Positions 816 through 14,799 of a DNA stretch of 64,000 nt are shown here, one piece after another; the first letter of the stretch is position 1; every line of letters begins with the position of its first letter. The position numbers and the translations under genes were made by a program. The DNA is from an uncultured Prevotellaceae bacterium (GTDB lineage Bacteria > Bacteroidota > Bacteroidia > Bacteroidales > Bacteroidaceae): assembly GCA_902784565.1 (NCBI GenBank), contig CACZVE010000015.1:21223-85222 (forward strand), read 5' to 3'. Below the pieces are notes generated by a model. It saw only the letters and a program-made list of their open reading frames with translations, was not told the origin of the DNA and searched no databases.

Positions 816-2843
816 CTACGGTAGTTCCGAAAGCACCTTTTTATACAGACCAAACTTAACCCTTTCAATGACATTATCCTCAGTGAGACGAATCAAACTG
901 CGCGAAGCAGCAGATTGAGAACACCCGAAGCAGTCCATGAACTGCTGCGTTTTGAACTCATCTGGCAGTTTACGATAGCAATCATCATAGCGGGTAGTTC
1001 TCCGGCGTACCACAAACTCCTTGTTCTGGTCGGCGAAATAGTTGAAAGCCATCTCGCCGAAGAAGAACTGCTGACACTTATATTGGATTTCCATCGCCAG
1101 GCGACAGAGCCGCTTGTCAATATCATCCATTGTCAGCGTTTTGTACTCCTGCCATTCGTCCCAATGCCTCATAACGATATAAGGCAATGAAATGCCGATG
1201 CCGTAATATGGAATACGTTTCAGGAGCGTTCGGTCTGCCTTGTCATGATTAAACTCTGCAATCTCCATACGGTTGGACTGCCACTCGTAGGTCTCATCAT
1301 TCAAAGGCTCGATGGGGATTTCTCCCTCCACCTTATCCAATCGATAAGCCCAAGTTCTCAAAGTCTCGTTGGCATTGGGGTCAACCTCTTGCTTTCGCTT
1401 TGCCAAGCCCTTATCGGGTAAGGGGATGACGGCAAGGCGGGTAGACATACCAGTACCGAAATTGCGCTGATTGACTTTGCGATGCAACGCATACGGCGTA
1501 CCAGTATAGATGAAGTTCCAGAACACATTGAACATTCCCGTCAGACTATCCTGATTGGCATACATCTGACCATCCTGTTCGTTGTGAAAAGCCTTCAACT
1601 CCAAAATCTCACGATCTTTCCAGTCGCCACCTTTATTATTTTTGGTGACATTATCCAGTTCAGAGTCAAATGAGAACATGTGGAGATTCAGGTTTCTACC
1701 TTGAACATTCTCTACCGCAGCCTGCATGTGTCGGATAAACTCACCAGTTGCCGTTCTTGCAGGATGCACACGGATGTCTACCACTGGCCTTTTCAGGGCT
1801 TCGCCCTTCTGTGCCTTCGTGGAAGTTGTGCGCTCTGTCCTACCCTCTTTGTAGCGGTTTACCGCATCTATTAGTCCTTGGTCTGCCTGGATCATCGGGT
1901 CAGCAATCTTGAAGTAAAACTTCTCAATAGCGTTCTTTCCCGCTCCTGGGTCACCAATAATAAAGATGCAGTAATTGAGTCTTCTGATAATCTCAGGGTC
2001 ATACCAGAAATGGTAATAGGCCCTTGTCATCAGCGTCCCAAACAAAGCCGCACTACTGAATAGGATTGCCGGCAACTTATGCGGGTGTGCATTCAGGAAC
2101 AACTCCTTCATACAGGGATAATACTCTGCCATCTTCTGCAATTCCTCTGCCCACTTATCCAGTGGCAACTGTGCGTAGATATCCTCAGGCGAATCATGGG
2201 GACTGACCCCTGTGATAGTAGCGGAGCGGAGATCATGGGGTCTGTCCCCGTGATTCGCCCCCACCTTCTCCAGCGCCTCCTTCATCCTTTTCGGCATATT
2301 TTCCCGGTACTTAAACTCAATCACCGAATTGATAGTCGAACTGACATTTTCCCCTTCTGCCGCAAGGTCTTTCACCCAAGGTAATTGCATTACCACCTCT
2401 TCTATCTTCTTAGGATTCTTCCCTATCAGATATCTAAGGTGACTTGCTAACTCCACAAGGGTATTGTGCCTGTTCTTTTCGAGATTTACACCATCCAGCC
2501 ACGCCTCAATGATCTTGGTGTATGGCACCCCATTATAACTCAAAGCATCAGCAGGCTGTACACCTCCACCATTGCCCTCGAGTATGCTCTGTTGGTTTTC
2601 TCCAGTAGTTTGTACGGAGGCCACGCCAGTATTATTAGGGTTACTCTCAGCAAAATTAAGAGTAGGCTGGCTATGACCAGCATGATATTCAGCATTGTAT
2701 TTTTTACCAAACTCTTCATTTTCATAGGTAAATAAGTTTTCTTTCAAAATGATAATGTCATCACGCGTAGTTAAGAATGCACCGCGACTTGCATCCTTAC
2801 AAGAAAGCCTTTTGGTTGTCAATGAGGTTTCCCACATTGACAT
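816..2843 (-). CDS. DUF3987-type primase-helicase, C-terminal part of a frameshifted gene
   Basis: This 675-aa reading frame holds a P-loop ATPase segment with Walker A IIGDPGAGKN at about residue 290. The domain arrangement is that of the DUF3987 helicase-like part of BT4734 primase-helicase proteins, which replicate mobile or phage-like DNA. The first residues (MSMWETSLTTKR) are out-of-frame reading of the preceding domain; genuine homology starts at SCKDASRGAF. The N-terminal VirE-N domain is in another frame (2797-3411), so the gene is broken at about 2797-2815. Residues about 202-225 look like an insertion encoded by two palindromic repeats. A winged-helix-like tail (CFGCSQSAASRSLIRL) ends the protein. 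It may be inactive unless the two halves work separately. Confidence 0.7.
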   Translation of the reverse strand: MSMWETSLTTKRLSCKDASRGAFLTTRDDIIILKENLFTYENEEFGKKYNAEYHAGHSQPTLNFAESNPNNTGVASVQTTGENQQSILEGNGGGVQPADALSYNGVPYTKIIEAWLDGVNLEKNRHNTLVELASHLRYLIGKNPKKIEEVVMQLPWVKDLAAEGENVSSTINSVIEFKYRENMPKRMKEALEKVGANHGDRPHDLRSATITGVSPHDSPEDIYAQLPLDKWAEELQKMAEYYPCMKELFLNAHPHKLPAILFSSAALFGTLMTRAYYHFWYDPEIIRRLNYCIFIIGDPGAGKNAIEKFYFKIADPMIQADQGLIDAVNRYKEGRTERTTSTKAQKGEALKRPVVDIRVHPARTATGEFIRHMQAAVENVQGRNLNLHMFSFDSELDNVTKNNKGGDWKDREILELKAFHNEQDGQMYANQDSLTGMFNVFWNFIYTGTPYALHRKVNQRNFGTGMSTRLAVIPLPDKGLAKRKQEVDPNANETLRTWAYRLDKVEGEIPIEPLNDETYEWQSNRMEIAEFNHDKADRTLLKRIPYYGIGISLPYIVMRHWDEWQEYKTLTMDDIDKRLCRLAMEIQYKCQQFFFGEMAFNYFADQNKEFVVRRRTTRYDDCYRKLPDEFKTQQFMDCFGCSQSAASRSLIRLTEDNVIERVKFGLYKKVLSELP
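2188..2259. repeat. Pair of 23-24 bp palindromes inside the helicase gene
   Basis: Two palindromes of form ATCAYGGGG-N5-6-CCCCnnTGAT lie at 2193-2216 and 2232-2254. Together they form a larger inverted repeat with arms 2188-2210 and 2237-2259 (two mismatches). They are translated as part of the protein. A third copy is at 42689-42711 in another gene. Confidence 0.75.
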
Positions 2844-3411
2844 CAGCCATAAAGACTACTTTCAGACCGTGACCAGACGGGGTAATATAAACAAGGAGTA
2901 TCCGGGCTTTATCCTCGTCACTGAGTTTTGCAAAAGCCTCAGTCCATACCTCTCTGCAATCTCCTTCTATATGGTCAAAGTCTATCACACACAAACCATT
3001 CAAACGGCACGCCGCCTGCTTTCTCCAGCACCCTAACTTCCCGCTTGCAGAAGCGGTTTCAACGTAGGTTGCAATAAAGATCACAAACGGAAGTGATTTC
3101 TTCAGGTTGTCACAATAGGTCTGGAGCTTCTTCTCAATGGGTAATTCCTTAAAGAGTTCACCCTTTGATTTTCCTCCAGATGTTTTCTTTCTACTTGCTT
3201 CCTGCCCTTGGCAGAACTTCATGAAATTCTCATCAGAAACCCACTGATTAAGCAACTCTTCGTTTCCCTCTAAAATGGCGGGCAGTGCCTCCCGCAACTT
3301 ACGATGCGTTGTCGTAAGCCATTTGGTCTGTGCACTGTCCACCAGATTATTGAAGATTTCAGCAGTCACTATTGCTGTGGGCAAATCGAATCTTGGTTGA
3401 TTACAAAACAT
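2797..3411 (-). CDS. VirE-N / BT4734-like primase domain, N-terminal part of the broken primase-helicase
   Basis: This 204-aa frame starts MFCNQPRFDLPTAIVT, a usual opening for BT4734-like proteins. It contains CVIDFDHIEGD and VYITPSGHGLKVVF, the acidic and Ser-Gly-His-Gly motifs of the archaeo-eukaryotic primase-like VirE-N domain. It stops at DNQKAFL. The expected next segment, leading into CKDASR, is missing about a dozen codons and resumes in another frame in the following ORF. The sequence TCTTG occurs at the junction in both reading phases, consistent with a deletion between short direct repeats. It overlaps the upstream small gene by 43 bp. The role as a primase is inferred from the family. 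Confidence 0.65.
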   Translation of the reverse strand: MFCNQPRFDLPTAIVTAEIFNNLVDSAQTKWLTTTHRKLREALPAILEGNEELLNQWVSDENFMKFCQGQEASRKKTSGGKSKGELFKELPIEKKLQTYCDNLKKSLPFVIFIATYVETASASGKLGCWRKQAACRLNGLCVIDFDHIEGDCREVWTEAFAKLSDEDKARILLVYITPSGHGLKVVFMADVNVGNLIDNQKAFL

Positions 3412-4291: not shown

Positions 4292-4990
4292 TTAAATGAT
4301 AGTTCTAATGAATTCCATTCCTACGGCTGTCCAAACCATATAAGACCTTTCCTTCTTTTCTCCTTCAAGGGAGAACCAATGGAAGAATCTGTCCTGAGTA
4401 AGACCCTGACCTTCGAATTCCGGTTTCAGGAAATAGCGTCCGTTCGCCCAGAAAACGATTTGCTTTTCCATCAGTTTTTTGTTCAACTTCTTGTAGGTCG
4501 TACCTAACATTTCAGCGATTTGCCTTATAGTGAGGCATCCGTCTGCTGGTTCGTTTTCCTCTTCTATCTGCTCTCGGCGAATCGCGTCGCTCTTTCGCAG
4601 GATTTCCTTTTCCGTTACCAGCAATTTTTGTTCTTTGGGATTTGCAATCCCGTTGTCCTGAGAATCAGAAGTTTCAATCTTCTCTTTTTCCAGTTGTTGC
4701 CACCTTAATACTAACCTTGCTCTTGCCTGGTCATTGAATTTTGTGGCCACATATAATGTTTCCTCTTTAGTAAGCGAAAACACCGGAATCAATCTTACGC
4801 CGCCCTGCGGCATATTGACCCTTTCCGATGTGAGCACAAATTTGTGCCCACATTCATTTTCCCATGCAGGTTCCATCTCGCGGATAGCCTTGAGCACTAC
4901 TTTGTGCAACTTCCCCGTGACTGCTGCAATCTCCAGTGATGTAATGCGCTGCGCATCCGTCACTGATACTAATGCTTTTTCTTTTTTCAT
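4292..4990 (-). CDS. Rha/KilA-C phage regulatory protein
   Basis: This is a two-domain phage-type regulator of 232 aa. Residues about 10-100 resemble the Rha domain (ITSLEIAAVTGKLHKVVLKAIREME, then VFSLTKEETLYVATKF). Residues about 150-225 resemble the KilA-C/ANT antirepressor domain (LTIRQIAEMLGTTYKKLNKKLMEKQI, then GQGLTQDRFF). A charged linker joins them. Such proteins control phage lysogeny or development and bind DNA. It is the first gene of the minus-strand replication operon, and its upstream region (4991-5384) carries repeated CAGCAGAG boxes that could be its operators. The domain call is good; the target is unknown. Confidence 0.75.
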   Translation of the reverse strand: MKKEKALVSVTDAQRITSLEIAAVTGKLHKVVLKAIREMEPAWENECGHKFVLTSERVNMPQGGVRLIPVFSLTKEETLYVATKFNDQARARLVLRWQQLEKEKIETSDSQDNGIANPKEQKLLVTEKEILRKSDAIRREQIEEENEPADGCLTIRQIAEMLGTTYKKLNKKLMEKQIVFWANGRYFLKPEFEGQGLTQDRFFHWFSLEGEKKERSYMVWTAVGMEFIRTII

Positions 4991-7815: not shown

Positions 7816-8649
7816 TTATTCTATATCTTTAGCATATTTCCAATAATAACTATATGCTGTTCTCTGCTTACCTTTTAAAACATTTATCACGTTTTGAGGG
7901 CTCGGAACATTAAAAGCTTGACAAATATCGTTCAATGAATCATACTCCTTTATTATATTTCCATCTTTATCTATTTGAACTATAGCCCTTTTCTTTCTCT
8001 CGTCAGAGATGATTCTCTCCAAATTATCATAGATATAATCTGAAACTTCTTCTTCTACCTCATTTTGAATCTTCCATCCGATAAAAGGAATAGCATCGTC
8101 CAATAATGAATCGTAAACCTCATCATCATTTGATGAAGGTTTTTCAAAATTGTAAGCATCTATCCACCCCTGAAAAGGATTGATTTCCCGATATTTCTCT
8201 TTTGCTAAATACTTTTCTTCATCATTCAACCTCTTCCCCCTCTCAAGTTTATCAACCAAACTATTATATAATTGTAAACGTTTGGGGAGTTCTTCATTTA
8301 TCATCTCATTGTATTTTTCTTGTATTATTGCTTTGGAGTTAGTATGCGAATGTCCACTTGTTTCGACATTATATCCATAATCTGGATCAAATGCCCGATA
8401 CAACTGAATATAGTGGGTTTCAGCCTGATTAAGAACCCAAACCAATTCGTCTATACTATCACAATCTGCTTCATATATTACCTCATATTTGGATTCTCCA
8501 TATTTTTGCAGAGCCTCCCATAAACGAGTGTTACTAGGTCCTGCCAACTTATCAAGATGTTCGCGCTTCCTTTTCTCTGGATGACGTCTTGTTTGCCCTA
8601 TATAAACTTTACCATCCGGGAATGTATATTTGTATATTATACCTTTCAT
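7816..8649 (-). CDS. GIY-YIG nuclease with a NUMOD1-like C-terminus
   Basis: Residues 1-90 form a GIY-YIG endonuclease domain (GIIYKYTF, then KVYIGQTRR, then EKRKREHL), with conserved Tyr, Gly and Arg in place. A long helical, acidic middle follows. The end (IVQIDKDGNIIKEYDSLNDI, then a short helix-turn region finishing KGKQRTAYSYYW) resembles the NUMOD1 DNA-binding repeat of homing-type nucleases. It starts 30 bp after a 44-aa membrane peptide gene and probably shares that gene's promoter and operator. The A+T content appears higher than in neighbouring genes, suggesting transfer. The nuclease fold is sure; whether it is a homing, repair or defence enzyme is not. Confidence 0.8.
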   Translation of the reverse strand: MKGIIYKYTFPDGKVYIGQTRRHPEKRKREHLDKLAGPSNTRLWEALQKYGESKYEVIYEADCDSIDELVWVLNQAETHYIQLYRAFDPDYGYNVETSGHSHTNSKAIIQEKYNEMINEELPKRLQLYNSLVDKLERGKRLNDEEKYLAKEKYREINPFQGWIDAYNFEKPSSNDDEVYDSLLDDAIPFIGWKIQNEVEEEVSDYIYDNLERIISDERKKRAIVQIDKDGNIIKEYDSLNDICQAFNVPSPQNVINVLKGKQRTAYSYYWKYAKDIE

Positions 8650-8679: not shown

Positions 8680-8814
8680 TTAATGATACTTTGGATTGAA
8701 AAAACTACAGATGATACCAACGATAAACATTACCGGGAAAAACCACCAAGGCAATAAACATGCAGCAATGATGATTGCCAAAATACTGAAAACTATTAAT
8801 GCACCTTCAATCAT
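8680..8814 (-). CDS. 44-aa two-helix membrane peptide under an operator shared with umuDC
   Basis: The minus-strand frame starts at the ATG at 8812-8814 and ends with TAA at 8680-8682. The product begins MIEGALIVFSILAIIIAACL, has a WWFFP turn, a second hydrophobic run (VMFIVGIICSFF) and a short NPKYH tail, so nearly all of it is membrane-embedded. It lies 26 bp from a -7 box carrying the same palindromic operator found before umuD. Small hydrophobic peptides under SOS control are often toxins (TisB in E. coli is the model); that is an analogy, not homology. It could instead be a small immunity-type or accessory protein for the GIY-YIG nuclease that follows. Confidence 0.6.
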   Translation of the reverse strand: MIEGALIVFSILAIIIAACLLPWWFFPVMFIVGIICSFFNPKYH

Positions 8815-8839: not shown

Positions 8840-8876
8840 GCAAAAATAGCCCCAGCCTGTACCATAAGTCGGTACA
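8840..8876 (-). promoter_or_regulatory. Promoter plus palindromic operator for the 44-aa peptide/GIY-YIG unit
   Basis: The operator TGTACC-N7-GGTACA spans 8858-8876. After exactly 9 bp comes the -7 box at 8840-8848 (TATTTTTGC on the minus strand). The umuD promoter has the same elements at the same spacing. The operator covers the -33/spacer region, so a bound protein would block transcription. Confidence 0.7.
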
Positions 8877-8903
8877 CCCTTGATTATTTAACAAGAATTA
8901 ATA

Positions 8904-9422
8904 TTATTCCTCTGCTGCTTTAAGCATACCGCCTTCTTCTTCCATATCAGGATAAGGCTTTCCTATGGTGGCATGATCCTCCAGCCAGATCTTGTTCAGT
9001 GTATATGCGAGAGATTTCAGCGTGTCTTCACGCTTTGATGGTTTCAGTTCACACTCCCACACCGTGATGCAATGCCAACCCATTTCAGCCAACTTGCGCT
9101 GTTCCTCAATATCACGCTGCTGGTTCCGACTAATCTTTGCCACCCAAAATTCATGGTTAGTGTTTGGTATCTTGCAGCAGGCAGAACTCTCCATTGTACT
9201 CGAATCCACAAGATGCCCATGCCAGAAGCATCCGTTGATGAAGATGCAAGTCCGATATTTCTTCAGCACCAAATCAGGATGCCCAGGCAATCGCTTATGA
9301 TTCAACCTAAAGCGGAATCCCTTTCTCCACAGCCCCTTCCGCACAATCATCTCCGGCTTCGTATTTTTACCACGAATTGCCGCCATAGTATTATGACGTT
9401 GTTGTGGAGTGAGATGGTCCAT
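8904..9422 (-). CDS. vsr: Very short patch repair endonuclease
   Basis: Vsr nicks DNA next to T:G mismatches formed when 5-methylcytosine deaminates, allowing repair. This 172-aa protein opens MDHLTPQQRHNTMAAIRGKN, has the family basic region (RFRLNHKRLPGHPDLVL, with the metal-binding Asp), and the hallmark CIFINGCFWHGH. It lies 1 bp after the stop of the C5 methyltransferase on the same strand, the usual pairing, and closes the restriction-modification operon. Family length and motifs are complete, so it is probably active. Confidence 0.93.
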   Translation of the reverse strand: MDHLTPQQRHNTMAAIRGKNTKPEMIVRKGLWRKGFRFRLNHKRLPGHPDLVLKKYRTCIFINGCFWHGHLVDSSTMESSACCKIPNTNHEFWVAKISRNQQRDIEEQRKLAEMGWHCITVWECELKPSKREDTLKSLAYTLNKIWLEDHATIGKPYPDMEEEGGMLKAAEE

Positions 9423-9423
9423 A

Positions 9424-11151
9424 TTATTCTCTAAAAATCCTTCCCAGCAAAGTATCCTTATACCAATATCTTGTCAGCGACAGCATTTCATATTCAGGCA
9501 GACTCTCCAAGTATTCCAATTCAAACACCAAACGTGGTTCTTCATCATTAGACTCTGGATGAATCTCTGCCTTGTTGCCAATACGAGCAACGCGAATCAG
9601 ATACAGATCACGCACTCCCTTCTCCTTAATATAAGGCATGAAGTAGTAAAGTTTGTTGATAGCAACAGTTGAAGGGAAAGTCTTGGTTTTACCTGTATAG
9701 TAAATCTTTGTAGGCTCTTCTTTCAAGAAGTATTCCTCATTATCTTTTTTCACCAAGCCAATCAGCAGATGCTTCGCAGGGTCTAGTGTGTATTGTTTCT
9801 TGGGACGATTGACCACCAAGGGTTTTTCTTCGTCAGCAAATAAGCCTAAATCAAGCATCGGCTTGGCATCGCGGCTTGTGAAAATAGGCTTAGAAGATAC
9901 AGGAGCCTCGTCATAGATGAACTGATAGAGACTCTTACCAATCTGTTCAACGATACCACACACCAATGCATTACCCATTAGAAATGCACGTCTTCCATCT
10001 GATACTTCTGGATGGAGTGTATGATTGTCAGGGAACATATTCATACGTTCCAACTCAATAGGCAGCAGGCGGCGATAGCGGCCAGACTTCGTTTTCACCA
10101 CATGTTTGAAACGTGATGGTGCAGTGCCACCTTCCCCAGTTATAATAGTACGTGAAGGCTGGTCAAGAGAGTCAGGGAAAGCCATACCTCCCTCAGAGAA
10201 CATATACTTGTAGCCCTCCTTGGAAACACGCTCAATCTTCTTAGCACCCTTTTCATATTCCCATTTAGGGAGTTCTTCATCTGAGATAAAGAATTCTTCT
10301 GGCACGAAATCCTCATCAACAAGATTGCCTCCCAATGTCTGACGTGGACCATCATAAACGGGGTCTGCATCAACGGAATAGACATGGCGGTCCATCATCA
10401 TTCCTGCATTACCAAAAGGACTATCTTTCTTGCCTTTGTTAAATCCGTCAGAAACCTCCTTGATGGAACCTTCTATGTCAAACTCAGACACTGTTCCTGC
10501 CTTTGGTCTGAACTCAAAAGCCTTTGCCATAACTCCATCGAACTCTACCCAGTCTGCCATTTGCTCTACCTTCTGAGCCACCACGGAATTCTGTAAATAG
10601 CCCACGATGTAAGTTCTGCGCCTACGCTGTGGCATACCGTAGTCTGCTGCATTGACAATACGCCACTCTACAACATACCCCAAATCTGCTAAAGAAGCAA
10701 GGATAATTGCAAAGTCGCGCCCTCGCTGAGTTGCAGGAGAATTAAGCAGGCGATCAACATTCTCGAAGAATATATATTGAGGACGTTTGTCGCCTTTCTC
10801 CTGAAGGATGCGATAGATTTGCCACCACAGCACACCTTTCTTACCTTCAATGCCACCTGAACGACTTAACGTTGCAGCTACAGAATAGTCTTGGCAAGGG
10901 AAACCACCAACCAATAAATCATGATCAGGTATATCTGTTGTCAGTACTGTGTTGATATCTTTATTGCAATGCCCTTTTCTGCCAAAGCGAGCCTGATATA
11001 CTAACGAAGCGTCCTGATGCTGAGTCGACGGTTCCCACTGGTTATTCCAGATGGTTTCGTATGCGTCCGACGCACCTTCAAGTCCAATGCGGAAACCACC
11101 CACACCGGCGAATAATTCTACTACACGAATCTTATGTTTACTCTTAGACAT
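9424..11151 (-). CDS. dcm: DNA (cytosine-5-)-methyltransferase with a C-terminal extension
   Basis: All main C5-methyltransferase motifs are present: I (ELFAGVGGFRIGLE, about residue 13), IV with catalytic Cys (GGFPCQDYS), VI (FFENVDRLL), VIII (MPQRRRRTYIVGY) and X (LMGNALVCGIVEQIG). It transfers a methyl group from S-adenosylmethionine to cytosine. At 575 aa it exceeds the usual length by about 170 residues; the extension (from about residue 400) is unrecognised. Its start overlaps the end of the restriction-enzyme frame by 8 bp, implying coupled translation. With a Sau3AI-like partner the target may be GATC, an inference from the family rather than the sequence. Confidence 0.93.
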   Translation of the reverse strand: MSKSKHKIRVVELFAGVGGFRIGLEGASDAYETIWNNQWEPSTQHQDASLVYQARFGRKGHCNKDINTVLTTDIPDHDLLVGGFPCQDYSVAATLSRSGGIEGKKGVLWWQIYRILQEKGDKRPQYIFFENVDRLLNSPATQRGRDFAIILASLADLGYVVEWRIVNAADYGMPQRRRRTYIVGYLQNSVVAQKVEQMADWVEFDGVMAKAFEFRPKAGTVSEFDIEGSIKEVSDGFNKGKKDSPFGNAGMMMDRHVYSVDADPVYDGPRQTLGGNLVDEDFVPEEFFISDEELPKWEYEKGAKKIERVSKEGYKYMFSEGGMAFPDSLDQPSRTIITGEGGTAPSRFKHVVKTKSGRYRRLLPIELERMNMFPDNHTLHPEVSDGRRAFLMGNALVCGIVEQIGKSLYQFIYDEAPVSSKPIFTSRDAKPMLDLGLFADEEKPLVVNRPKKQYTLDPAKHLLIGLVKKDNEEYFLKEEPTKIYYTGKTKTFPSTVAINKLYYFMPYIKEKGVRDLYLIRVARIGNKAEIHPESNDEEPRLVFELEYLESLPEYEMLSLTRYWYKDTLLGRIFRE

Positions 11152-11590
11152 TCTCTTTTATAATTTCTTTTACATAATCGTTGTTGAACCAATAACAATA
11201 TTTCTTCACCTTTTCGCCATCTGGATTATTAGGATTGATGGCTAAGTCTTTTGAATTCTTTCCCTTTGGACGGACGTGAAACCGCTTGTTTTTGGGAGAA
11301 TTGAAGTAGTCTGGGTGAATGTGGTTGTCCAGAATTGTTTGGCGAATATGTTTCCAGTATTTCTCAGCGTACTCTAAATCTTCTACTGGCATAGTCCAGA
11401 AGAAAGCCTTGTCAAAAGCATATGTATTCTCTGTTACAAGTTCGCCTTCTTTGTTGTAATACTCTATCTGCCCGCCATCGGCTCTGAAAATGGCAAACAG
11501 AAAACGACCGCTGAAAATCTCATATAAACGAGAATCCAGCCAGTCTTCAGTATCATAAACCTCAGAGTAGTTGATATTCTCAAAAGACAT
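11144..11590 (-). CDS. Sau3AI-like restriction endonuclease, C-terminal part (frameshifted)
   Basis: This 148-aa frame begins MSFENINYSEVYDTEDWLDS and continues FSGRFLFAIFRADGG. It is the expected continuation of the upstream 338-aa frame after restoring one base: adding a G in the GTGGTGG run at about 11603-11606 joins them as VVGINEAMSFENI. The MutH-like second domain of Sau3AI-family enzymes helps recognise DNA. As it stands this part would be translated separately or not at all. It overlaps the methyltransferase start by 8 bp. Confidence 0.65.
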   Translation of the reverse strand: MSFENINYSEVYDTEDWLDSRLYEIFSGRFLFAIFRADGGQIEYYNKEGELVTENTYAFDKAFFWTMPVEDLEYAEKYWKHIRQTILDNHIHPDYFNSPKNKRFHVRPKGKNSKDLAINPNNPDGEKVKKYCYWFNNDYVKEIIKENV

Positions 11591-12480
11591 TGCCTCGTTG
11601 ATGCCACCACATATTTGTCCTTTGAAGTGTCATACCTTTTGCCGATCTTTGAACACAATTGTTCATAAGTCAGCCCCTGATAATCGTCGAATTTGCGAAG
11701 TACAATATTCTCGAATGTGTCGTTACGCAATTCTGCTGCCGTTGCAATCTGTGAAGCCTTCTCCTTATACTTGAAATTGACAACAGATTTCTTTTTGCTA
11801 GCCTTGATAAATTCAAGAACAGTGCGCATATAGGCAGGCTTAAGCGAGAATGCTCTGCCAGGAGCAAGAACATTTGAATATGGTTGCTGGCGTAGTTTTG
11901 AATCCTTGTTACCTTTGCGACAAGCACCAAGATATTCCGTATCACCTTCTGACAACAAGTGAGCTTCACCTCTCTTGATTTTGTTGATTATAACCTCGTA
12001 GTCATTCTTAATAATCAGCAAATCTTTTTCAGGAATCTTCCATAATACGACATAAAGGAAATAACGGTCAAATTGCTCAACTCCCTTTTCGTACAGATAG
12101 AATAGCAAAAGAAGTAGTCGAAATTTCTTATAGAACAAGGACATTTCAAACGTTTGACTAACCACTTCATTGTAGTTTATCATGTCAACGACGAGTCGCT
12201 CCTTTATCTGAAGCGTCATGTCTTTAAGTTCTTTGAGACCTGTCGTTTTCAGTTCAACGCCAGCTTCCCTGAAATCTGGCTCTGGTGAACTATTGGGTTT
12301 ATAGTGATAGTAGAGTTCCTCAACCATTTGTCCTAATTCACCCTTGTTCTTTGAGTTGTAACCAGCAACAGCAGCATCGCCAACGATTTCTCGCAGCGTG
12401 TGGTCTATGAGGGGCAGAGCGTACTCATAGATGGATATTGGGTCTGTCTTGTCGTACGGCAAAGATTCTTTATGTGCCAT
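11464..12480 (-). CDS. Sau3AI/MutH-family restriction endonuclease, N-terminal part (frameshifted)
   Basis: This 338-aa frame starts MAHKESLPYDKTDPISIYEYA and carries the MutH/Sau3AI catalytic signature: an Asp in PDFREAG followed by ELKTTGL (E-x-K). Sau3AI-type enzymes cleave both strands at GATC. Residues after DTSKDKYVV are out of frame; the true continuation is the 11144-11590 frame, giving a protein of about 445 aa. The lesion is one missing base in a short G run, so a sequencing error, a recent mutation or phase variation are all possible. It is the first gene of the operon with methyltransferase and vsr. The frameshift leaves the catalytic motifs intact but removes the C-terminal domain. 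Confidence 0.75.
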   Translation of the reverse strand: MAHKESLPYDKTDPISIYEYALPLIDHTLREIVGDAAVAGYNSKNKGELGQMVEELYYHYKPNSSPEPDFREAGVELKTTGLKELKDMTLQIKERLVVDMINYNEVVSQTFEMSLFYKKFRLLLLLFYLYEKGVEQFDRYFLYVVLWKIPEKDLLIIKNDYEVIINKIKRGEAHLLSEGDTEYLGACRKGNKDSKLRQQPYSNVLAPGRAFSLKPAYMRTVLEFIKASKKKSVVNFKYKEKASQIATAAELRNDTFENIVLRKFDDYQGLTYEQLCSKIGKRYDTSKDKYVVASTRQCLLRISTTLRFMILKTGWILVYMRFSAVVFCLPFSEPMAGR

Positions 12481-12513
12481 TCTATTATTCGCCTATTAAT
12501 AACTAATTGCCGA

Positions 12514-12521
12514 CAAAATTA
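12514..12521 (-). promoter_or_regulatory. Probable -7 box of the restriction-modification operon
   Basis: This reads TAATTTTG on the minus strand, 33 bp before the ATG at 12480. No good TTTG was found at the usual distance, so it is only probable. Confidence 0.4.
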
Positions 12522-12584
12522 CAAAAACTTTGGGAGAAAAATGTGTTTTGTTTCAAAAATACACAATATTTAATAAAAGAACAG

Positions 12585-12614
12585 ATTACACTCGGGGACA
12601 GGACGTTGTGTAAT
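12585..12614. promoter_or_regulatory. Inverted repeat between umuC and the restriction operon
   Basis: ATTACAC (12585-12591) and GTGTAAT (12608-12614) flank a GC-rich centre. It lies after the umuC stop and before the restriction operon promoter on the same strand. It could end umuDC transcription, although no T run follows, or act as an operator. Confidence 0.35.
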
Positions 12615-12660
12615 TATAAATGAGTTTTCGGAAATTATGCTTTGATAAAGATGAGCGTTT

Positions 12661-13956
12661 TTATTTCAATTTTATGATGTCGCTCCACCTCGTGGTGGGG
12701 TTTTTGCTTTTGAAGTCGTGCTTGATGGCATTGGCAAAGATATTTGCCTTACCTTTGCCGTCCTTCTGGGTGTACTGCTGGCTGCCGATGACGATAGTCT
12801 CAGTGCCGTAGCGTTTGTTGATGCGGTCTACCACCTTGTCGAGTTGCCGGAACTTCTGGATGTGTTCGGCATCGAGGTCGAAGAGATCCTGCTGCAAAGG
12901 GCTGTCGGGTGTGATGCCGAGAACGATGACACCGGCCCGCTTGTAGAGGTAGCCCTGGTGGTAGATGCCTTTCAGCACCTCCTTCGCTGCCTTCACGATG
13001 TGGATGGTGGAACTGCTTGGCGTGACAAGCCGCCGTTCCTCGTATCGCCAGCACTGGGGCAGGTCTTCGCGGAAGGGATTGGTGGAGAGGAACACGCCGA
13101 CGATGGAAGCCACTGAGCCCTGCTTTCTGAGTTTCTCGGCACAGCGGCTGGCATAGTTCGACACGTGGGTATTCAGGGTGTCGAGGTCGGCAATCATCCC
13201 GTTGAAACTGCGACTGGTGCAGATGCTTTTCTTCTTCGTCAGTTCCTCATTCGGCACCACATCCTCGCCGTTGAGTTCCTGCCAGGTGCGCAGGATATTG
13301 ATGTTGTTGAAGGTCATCCGCACCCAGTCCTTGTGGTGGATGGCGAAGTCGTAGGCAGTATGGCATCCGAGGGCCTGCAACTTGGCGGCGTAGCGTCTGC
13401 CGATGCCCCAGACATCCTCGATGGGGAGCCATTTCAGGGCGGCAATGCGGTTCGCGTCGTTGTCGATGATGCAGCAGTGGCGATAGACCTCGAACTTTTT
13501 GGCCAGTCGGGCGGCGATTTTGGCAAGGGTCTTGTTGGGAGCCAGTCCGATGCTGACGGGCATCCCCACCCATTTCCATATCTTTCCGTACAGGTGCTCG
13601 CCCCAGGGCTGGAGTCTGTCGTGCCGGATGCCATCGAGATAGACGAAGCACTCGTCGATGCTGTAGCGGAAATAGGCGGGTGCCTCCTGCCGGATGATGC
13701 TCACCACCCGTGAGGTCAGGTCGCCATAGAGTTCGTAGTTGGAGGAGAAGACGGCGATGTCCTGATTCGGGTATTGCTGGAGCATCTTGAAGTAGGGCAT
13801 GCCTGCGGGGATGCCGAGTGCCTTCGCCTCGTTGCTACGGGCCACCACACAACCGTCGTTGTTCGACAGCACCACCACGGGCTTTCCCTCCAGGTCAGGA
13901 CGGAACACACGCTCGCATGAGACGTAGCAGTTATCGCAGTCAACAATCCCGTACAT
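12661..13956 (-). CDS. umuC: Y-family DNA polymerase UmuC
   Basis: This is the catalytic subunit of error-prone translesion polymerase V. The 431-aa protein has the N-terminal metal-binding site [15 protein letters not shown], the nucleotide-binding [19 protein letters not shown] segment, and the second acidic motif [12 protein letters not shown]. Fingers, palm, thumb ([10 protein letters not shown], helix-hairpin-helix) and little finger are all represented, and the length matches the family. It starts 3 bp after umuD, so the two are co-transcribed from the operator-controlled promoter at 14412-14448. Mobile elements of Bacteroidota often carry umuDC, consistent with its place in the accessory block. 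Confidence 0.95.
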
Positions 13957-13959
13957 CGC

Positions 13960-14385
13960 CTATTTCCAAGCCTTTATTGTATAGACCACCACACCCCACA
14001 CGCGGAAATTGGAACTCTCGTCGATGCGGAAGGGACTGAACCTCTTGTTGGCGGGACGCAACTCTATCCATCCCTCCTTGCGGTGCGTCAAGTCGAGGAA
14101 CTTCACGGTATATTCCTTGTCGATATAGGCCACCACCACGTCGCCATCCTCTGCATCGACACTGCGGTCTATGACCACGATGTCGCCGTCGCAGATGGCA
14201 GCATCGATCATGGAGTCGCCCTCCACCTGTCCGTAGAATGTCGCCTCGGGATGTCGTATCAGGTCGCGGTTAAAGTCGAGGCTCTCACCCAGGTAGTCCT
14301 CGGCACTCGACGGGAAGCCTGCCCTGAGAGACCGCGCAAACATCAGGTCAAGCCTCGTCTTGAATTCTCCTTTGATCAGTTTCAT
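13960..14385 (-). CDS. umuD: UmuD-like S24 autoprotease
   Basis: UmuD cleaves itself with RecA help and then joins UmuC. The chosen start gives a 141-aa protein opening MKLIKGEFKTRLDLMFARSL. A Gly-rich cleavage region (RAGFPSSAEDYLGESLDFN) is followed by the S24 catalytic parts: Ser in GDSMIDAAICDGDIVVIDRS and Lys in DKEYTVKFL. A longer frame extends to 14493 but would run through the promoter and operator, so the ATG at 14385 is preferred. It is first in the umuDC operon. Confidence 0.92.
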   Translation of the reverse strand: MKLIKGEFKTRLDLMFARSLRAGFPSSAEDYLGESLDFNRDLIRHPEATFYGQVEGDSMIDAAICDGDIVVIDRSVDAEDGDVVVAYIDKEYTVKFLDLTHRKEGWIELRPANKRFSPFRIDESSNFRVWGVVVYTIKAWK

Positions 14386-14411
14386 ATTGCATCCGTTTTG
14401 TTCATGTCGCT

Positions 14412-14448
14412 GCAAAAATACAAAAAAGATGTACCAGAAGTCGGTACA
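14412..14448 (-). promoter_or_regulatory. umuDC promoter with palindromic operator
   Basis: The operator TGTACC-N7-GGTACA lies at 14430-14448; the -7 box TATTTTTGC (minus strand) lies at 14412-14420, 9 bp away. Layout and sequence match 8840-8876, including GCAGCG after the -7 box. This implies one repressor controlling both units. UmuD itself or another S24-type repressor could be involved, but none is identified in the window. Confidence 0.75.
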
Positions 14449-14505
14449 CCCCCAGAGATTTAACTTTATTTTGTACCTGGGAGGTTTGTACATTTAATCG
14501 TGAAG

Positions 14506-14549
14506 TTACCCACTTACCCACTTACCCATTTATGACAGGAAGGTTTTTG
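14506..14549 (-). repeat. 44-bp repeat copy B (inverted relative to A and C)
   Basis: This is the perfect reverse complement of 763-806, containing three GGGTAA(GT) iterons. With copy C (14711-14746) it encloses an AT-rich palindrome. Confidence 0.9.
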
Positions 14550-14638
14550 AAAACGAAATTTTCGATAATTTTGGTAGAGTCAACTGGTTTAGGAGTGAAA
14601 GTCAACTTTCAAAGTACAAATTAGAATTATTTTTAAAC

Positions 14639-14681
14639 TTATTATTATATATATATAAATAATATATATATATAATAATAA
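14639..14681. repeat. AT-rich perfect palindrome
   Basis: Arms of 19 bp at 14639-14657 and 14663-14681, made only of A and T, surround a 5-base centre. It would melt or extrude easily. It lies between iteron copies B and C, in an intergenic region of about 540 bp (14386-14925) without genes. Confidence 0.8.
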
Positions 14682-14710
14682 AATTTTCTGCTTCTAAAAA
14701 TCGCAGAATG

Positions 14711-14746
14711 TTCCTGTCATAAATGGGTAAGTGGGTAAGTGGGTAA
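14711..14746 (+). repeat. 36-bp repeat copy C
   Basis: This is identical to the last 36 bp of copy A: TTCCTGTCATAAAT followed by two GGGTAAGT and one GGGTAA. It has the same orientation as A and is inverted relative to B. Confidence 0.9.
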
Positions 14747-14799
14747 CTTTGCCCCTGGTACAGCGTTAAACAAATTTAACAAAGAAACTTTACAAAATA

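Follow-up and report, generated by a model that had tools for sequence, protein, structure and literature searches.

The palindromic operator TGTACC-N7-GGTACA occurs twice in a stretch of 64,000 nucleotides from an uncultured Prevotellaceae bacterium (contig CACZVE010000015.1; hereafter the window), where it stands in front of the umuDC genes and of a unit encoding a small hydrophobic peptide and a nuclease. Its closest described counterparts are found among WYL regulators. DriD, the WYL activator of didA in Caulobacter, activates with single-stranded DNA (ssDNA) bound and recognizes the inverted repeat ATACGAC-N7-GTCGTAT, and its sites overlap a poor -35 element at one distance from the -10 element (PMC12340889); among its targets are repair genes and a membrane protein of 71 residues that inhibits division (PMC12340889, PMC4211646). 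PafBC of mycobacteria is a damage-response regulator of the WYL-WCX type that is activated by ssDNA and inserts between sigma and the -35 region (PMC11804915, PMC6789036). BrxR and CapW are WYL regulators encoded beside defence genes, and BrxR is a repressor that acts via inverted repeats of 11 bp with a 5-bp spacer (PMC9122601). The class-A WYL architecture was reported to be common in Bacteroidetes (PMC6789036). The SOS response of other Bacteroidetes is controlled by S24 repressors. Among them the non-canonical S24 LexA has palindromic operators before umuDC, recA and a COG4277 repair gene; the S24 boxes are GGA-N5-TCC and CTAA-N5-TTAG and the classical LexA box is CTGT-N8-ACAG, and both regulator groups are reported to be absent from Bacteroidales (PMC8565304).

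In its geometry the operator of the window resembles the DriD site more closely than the LexA box. Both are N7 inverted repeats, the fixed N9 distance to the -7 box recalls the constant spacing of DriD sites, and short membrane peptides and repair genes are found among the targets in either case. The half-site, the phylum and the sigma factor are different from those of DriD, many defence genes are present here, and activation by ssDNA can be ascribed to the present system only by analogy. PafBC is a heterodimer on a non-palindromic motif, whereas the operator is a palindrome. Its arms of 6 bp and spacer of 7 bp are unlike the BrxR repeat, and the fixed -7 spacing together with repair genes such as umuDC and recA sets the system apart from both BrxR and CapW. 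Half-sites and spacer also differ from the classical LexA box, as the initial annotation of this DNA had stated, and neither of the published S24 boxes of Bacteroidetes is matched.

Here, we present a family of helix-turn-helix (HTH)-WYL-WCX proteins that is predicted, with high confidence, to bind this palindrome and that probably activates transcription from it. More tentatively, we suggest that these activators could be the missing SOS-like regulator of Bacteroidales, a dominant order in gut and rumen communities: sensing ssDNA, they would govern repair (umuDC, recA, DprA, TIGR03916), immunity (Cas9, Cas12a, Cas3, restriction enzymes) and small growth-arrest membrane peptides by a single promoter architecture, in which the half-sites would vary between lineages together with the recognition helix. 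If this is true, DNA repair, CRISPR-Cas and restriction are joined under one WYL switch, the changing half-sites represent a natural code for DNA recognition by WYL proteins, and bacteria without known SOS regulators obtain a candidate regulator of their damage response. With the operator, the promoter architecture, the regulator family and a target list at hand, SOS-type control in Bacteroidales becomes testable. Among the matches listed in open-licence PMC literature, neither a WYL-controlled regulon nor a TGTACC operator was found for Bacteroidales.

Operator and promoter architecture

The two sites of the window, one for the peptide/nuclease unit (unit A) and one for umuDC (unit B), consist of the following elements:

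8858..8876, minus strand: operator A, TGTACCGACTTATGGTACA, exact match
8841..8848, minus strand: -7 box TATTTTTG of unit A, separated from operator A by 9 bp, then CAGCG
8887..8892, minus strand: GTTAAA, ten bases upstream of operator A
14430..14448, minus strand: operator B, TGTACCGACTTCTGGTACA, exact match
14413..14420, minus strand: -7 box TATTTTTG of unit B, separated from operator B by 9 bp, then CAGCG
14459..14464, minus strand: GTTAAA, ten bases upstream of operator B

The initial annotation had described two exact palindromes with a -7 box at exactly 9 bp and no other copy in the window, and all of this is borne out. Both sites read TGTACCGACTT(A/C)TGGTACA-N9-TATTTTTGCAGCG on the minus strand. 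Further copies were sought by counting mismatches in the window and in shuffled sequences: none exists at 0 or 1 mismatch, the best further site differs at 2 positions, and the 16 matches with up to 3 mismatches correspond to the background, as 19.6 are expected from the shuffled sequences. For the extended pattern TGTACC-N7-GGTACA-N9-TATTTTTGCAGCG there are two matches in the window, both on the minus strand, and none in 100 shuffles. A duplication of one promoter can be ruled out as the origin of the two sites, because their N9 stretches (GGCTGGGGC and TCTTTTTTG) and their flanks differ. In the genome assembly to which the window belongs (2.64 Mb in 117 contigs, 79% complete) a third exact copy is located at G000:C34:44549 and followed by N9-TATTTTTGCAG, the reversed control giving 0; this site lies directly after a T5orf172 gene and precedes an open frame of 75 codons. 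All three sites of this genome have GTTAAA at the same place, ten bases before the operator.

The bare palindrome had to be abandoned as a search key since it is near background (39 of 201 family genomes vs 23 with the reversed control). Specificity comes only with the N9/-7 geometry: a search with TANNTTNG and at most one mismatch retrieves 40 of the 399 family genomes, and the reversed control retrieves 0. In the contigs of 84,980 species the exact pattern TGTACC-N7-GGTACA-N9-TANNTTTGC marks 73 loci with 74 sites, and for all of these loci but L147, L161 and L164 (70 loci) the title names Bacteroidota. Named strains with a site include Prevotella sp. khp7 (L201), Prevotella sp. ne3005 (L197) and Hallella multisaccharivorax DSM 17128 (L207). 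Four further loci with the exact N9/-7 pattern were obtained from viral contigs. In 108 distinct promoters the N7 spacer is neither random nor symmetric, with G (79) or A (29) at position 7 and a prevailing T at positions 11 (93) and 13 (103). Upstream of the operator, at 11-14 bp, an A/T element is present, which is AAAA in 34 and AAAT in 17 of the 108.

Linkage and co-variation with an HTH-WYL-WCX family

Within 1.5 kb of 31 of the 74 sites found by the pattern only, and within 200 bp of 24 of them, lies an HTH-WYL-WCX gene (about 0.2 expected), even though 32 of the 74 sites have less than 1.5 kb of DNA on one side. Including one site without the last C, 32 of 75 sites are linked, and the arrangement is WYL gene followed by the operator on the same strand in 27 cases, divergent in 3 and operator followed by the WYL gene in 2, the gap measuring just 18-52 bp at many sites. 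In the site-adjoining protein of a relative (L126) Pfam recognizes WYL (7.7e-14) and WCX (7.8e-9); the HTH we infer from a conserved N-terminal helix, which has no Pfam HTH match. A profile built from nine operator-linked proteins has its best PDB matches in the WYL-WCX proteins PafBC (6sj9, 1.2e-11) and DriD (8tp8 and 9pfq, about 5e-11).

At E<=1e-30 this family is encoded by 58 of the 61 genomes behind the 73 loci (48/49 and 10/12), including that of L147, which is titled Lachnospiraceae. By record title the three genomes without it are Saccharofermentans (L164), Flavobacteriaceae (L151) and Desulfobulbaceae (L161), and the sites in such genomes may be chance matches (L151, L161). The L164 contig, which is assigned to Saccharofermentans, has Cas12a after an operator of the Prevotella type and is perhaps misbinned. 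In the sample of 399 family genomes, which overlaps with the 61 in some genomes, the WYL family is found in 34 of the 40 operator genomes vs 163 of the 359 others (p 1.3e-6), and the association persists when the nine profile-building genomes are left out (25 of 31, p 2.4e-4).

The reverse approach started from 70 loci chosen for their WYL protein (30 returned by the profile search and 40 picked from its list), in which palindromes of the type TGT-N13-ACA with at least 5 of 6 pairs were related to TAnnTTTG. The distance is 9 bp in 24 of 29 palindrome/-7 pairs and 7 (1), 15 (3) or 33 bp (1) in the remainder. A TGT..C site stands within 1.5 kb of 47 of 96 distinct WYL N-termini, a proportion that is biased by the many loci fetched for their operator. 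For the 49 WYL genes without such a site generic 6-bp palindromes also peak at 9 bp (12 vs 0-5 at each of 25 other distances).

Moreover, the half-sites appear to co-vary with the predicted recognition helix. In most lineages TGTACC goes together with a helix of the type RTTFNRH(K/R)D. The Asn of this helix is replaced in 7 of 48 pairs, and T occupies operator position 5 in 6 of these 7 vs 2 of the 41 with Asn (Fisher 1.5e-5). On the tree three helix changes are supported (five in all), and the operator follows in 2.7 of 3 and never changes in the opposite direction. The variant TGTTTC-N7-GAAACA-N9-TANNTTTG is present at 6 sites in 4 of 399 genomes (control 0). Three of these genomes, with H, F and Y as helix residues, had suggested the variant, and the fourth (G159), read only afterwards, has Y; as G159 and G047 are of one genus and have similar proteins, this is one new but not distant case.

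Some members of the family have unusual forms. In the regulators at L167:1155-2747 and L190:1615-3381 a Y1_Tnp domain (IS200-like transposase) is inserted between WYL and WCX, and L146 and L203 show the same gap in the profile. On the viral contig L220 (7175-8952) the operator precedes two consecutive WYL genes with unlike N-termini, which recalls the PafB/PafC pair. Distant WYL relatives (26-37% identity) are also found in six unannotated human fecal phage records (MT837932.1, MT837679.1, MT837357.1, MT838163.1, MT838511.1 and MT837260.1).

Proposed mode of action and rival explanations

In the proposed mechanism an HTH-WYL-WCX dimer of Bacteroidales would bind the two half-sites of the palindrome, which keep a constant distance of 9 bp to the downstream sigma-ABfr -7 element and take up the place of the -33 element; most likely it would activate transcription as DriD and PafBC do. 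The trigger would be ssDNA made during DNA damage or phage attack and bound by the WYL domain. In the genome of the window, umuDC, the peptide/nuclease unit and the third unit would be switched on, in relatives different combinations of genes for repair, CRISPR-Cas, restriction and short membrane peptides. Provided that the protein binds, activation is the probable outcome, and by analogy with DriD and PafBC it is fairly probable that ssDNA or damage is the signal; the gene content, too, makes a damage signal plausible. An ssDNA-triggered activator is favoured over a repressor because the N7 sites of DriD over a poor -35 element activate with ssDNA bound. In promoters of Bacteroides, TTTG is located near -33 and TAnnTTTG at -7; in Flavobacterium the -33 motif was reportedly not found (PMC7366714). 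In none of the 108 distinct promoters does TTTG occur 15-25 bp upstream of the -7 box, although the fixed letters of the operator exclude it at most of these spacers. Since the operator covers this very position, it stands where a -33 box would be. The absent -33 box is no independent proof of activation, because the letters of the operator themselves partly exclude it.

Repression by the same protein, with infection or damage relieving it from defence and repair genes in the manner of BrxR, is a reading that we consider unlikely. It would account for the overlap of operator and promoter and for WYL genes adjoining CRISPR and restriction genes, and CapW is said to be a WYL repressor, too. BrxR itself acts as a WYL repressor within a defence island, but its box of 11-bp repeats with a 5-bp spacer is unlike the operator (PMC9122601). 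Further, the WYL gene precedes the operator on the same strand in the 27 of 32 linked cases mentioned and is there not itself behind it, the distance to the -7 box is fixed, and CapW (0.007) fits the profile much less well than PafBC and DriD do (about 1e-11). The lack of a -33 box carries little weight here, as the operator letters largely exclude one.

The initial annotation had assumed one repressor for both units and had considered S24 proteins as its candidates. A single common regulator is supported by our results, an S24 protein as the binder is not, since the gene that adjoins the sites and co-varies with them encodes an HTH-WYL protein. A cleavable S24/XRE repressor, either of the LexA type or of the non-canonical one, that sits on the palindrome until damage occurs must be regarded as highly improbable, despite the umuD and UmuD-like S24 genes behind the operator (a cluster of 6 members) and the S24-controlled SOS response of other Bacteroidetes; the reported absence of both S24 groups from Bacteroidales and their different boxes argue against it (PMC8565304). 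In the UmuD of the window and in the relative L136 Pfam finds the S24 peptidase domain only, and no HTH-S24 gene is among the open reading frames (ORFs) picked behind 130 sites, which was not a systematic search for one. Two more S24 matches besides this UmuD exist in the genome of the window. Mere hitchhiking, i.e. frequent WYL genes in defence islands and an unrelated regulator reading the operator, is quite improbable as well. WYL regulators do co-localise with defence systems (PMC9122601), and about half of the family genomes have the WYL family regardless (197/399), but the gap between gene and operator is very short at many sites, recognition helix and half-site co-vary, and three genomes that have the WYL family also carry operators at their recA operon.

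Several observations weigh against an HTH-WYL-WCX activator of a damage regulon. Fixed spacing and promoter overlap are also compatible with a repressor, the profile ranking favours operator-linked loci as nine such proteins built it, and some single operator sites are likely due to chance. At 1e-40 the family is missing in 6 of the 40 operator genomes of the family sample and has 0 matches in the incomplete assembly of the window itself, whose single WYL protein matches over the WYL-WCX part only (7.6e-26) and has an N-terminus of another kind. Concerning co-variation, the pair L095 is a misfit (Asn replaced, no T at operator position 5), three tree pairs do not suffice for a sign test (p 0.25), and agreement falls to 0.6 of 3 if a change in either half-site is counted. 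Finally, the initial annotation had seen in the palindrome a possible SOS-type operator and expected it at the umuD promoters of relatives. When 300 bp upstream of the gene were inspected in the window and at the loci of 29 relatives, one of which (L275) was left out as its contig has almost no DNA upstream of the gene, none of the 28 testable relatives carried it, which is the outcome that the initial annotation had named as refuting this part of its view. This rules out umuD, of which a similar gene is present in 172 of 399 family genomes, as the core target; as the palindrome stands before the umuD of the window only, umuDC seems to have been recruited to the regulon in this lineage.

The species of the window is nevertheless likely to encode a WYL regulator of this kind in the unassembled part of its genome. 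In Prevotella sp. RUG647 the exact 19-mer of the window occurs at two unlinked loci, L149 and L216, of which L216 also shares GTTAAA and TATTTTTGCAG with the window. A variant is present at L157. About 0.5 kb behind the WYL gene of RUG647 (L314) the same 19-mer is found once more, with a -7 box that is one base off (TTACTTTG).

Target genes and the surroundings in the window

The survey of genes behind the operator comprised 130 distinct sites and relied on crude ORF picking, the target often being the second or third gene. It yielded a HIRAN cluster of 18 ORFs (one domain-scanned), 13 WYL genes and the 6 S24/UmuD-like ORFs. CRISPR genes are represented by Cas12a (3), Cas3 (2, one scanned) and Cas9 (1), and the recA operon follows the operator in the three WYL-bearing genomes. 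TIGR03916, the kind to which we presume the COG4277 repair gene to belong, was found twice (one scanned), and DprA, MmeI, Eco57I, a C5-methylase, GmrSD and a DUF1016 nuclease complete the list. A short hydrophobic peptide like that of the window is the first ORF at 21 of 109 sites, and Prevotella loci which combine it with the exact operator of the window include L148, L158, L191 and L192. These four loci as well as L153, L188, L201, L204 and L108, all with a Prevotella-type WYL operator, start with a single-helix membrane peptide of 31-49 residues, which in four cases has an RFSKDD- or RFTKDD-like tail and represents a recurrent module. For a protein of 65-71 residues behind the operator (L157, L216) a likeness to YolD was considered and dropped, as there is no Pfam match.

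In the window the two units contain the following genes:

13960..14385, minus strand: umuD (unit B), S24 peptidase of 141 residues; Pfam S24 7.9e-27, NF007621 139.9 bits (cut-off 110)
12661..13956, minus strand: umuC (unit B), Y-family polymerase of 431 residues; Pfam IMS, IMS_C and DUF4113, PRK03609 5.1e-98
8680..8814, minus strand: hydrophobic peptide of 44 residues, MIEGALIVFSILAIIIAACLLPWWFFPVMFIVGIICSFFNPKYH, first gene of unit A; ORF
7816..8649, minus strand: nuclease of 277 residues, group I intron endonuclease kind, second gene of unit A; TIGR01453 54.3 bits
7445..7726, minus strand: zinc-ribbon protein of 93 residues, possibly in unit A; Pfam Zn_ribbon_8 34.3 bits (cut-off 34.4)

With 328.8 bits umuC stays under the cut-off of 431 of the UmuC model PRK03609. 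Upstream of umuD (14511-14750) there is an AT-rich stretch flanked by GGGTAAGTGGGTAAGTGGGTAACTT-like inverted copies. The peptide of unit A reaches 3.15 on the Kyte-Doolittle scale in its top hydrophobic 17-mer and has no match in Pfam or NCBIfam. The nuclease, which we take to be a GIY-YIG enzyme by its motif, scores slightly below the TIGR01453 cut-off of 56.05 and shares 38% identity over 122 residues with a gene in a WYL/operator locus of another genus (G021). A plasmid search for unit A gave no match. Between the two operator units (8904-12480) a restriction set of Vsr, C5-methylase and a MutH-type enzyme is located, in front of which the window search found no copy of the operator. Elsewhere in the window a Phage_pRha/KilAC antirepressor (4292-4990) and a BT4734-like N-terminal domain (2797-3411) are encoded, which points to a mobile element.

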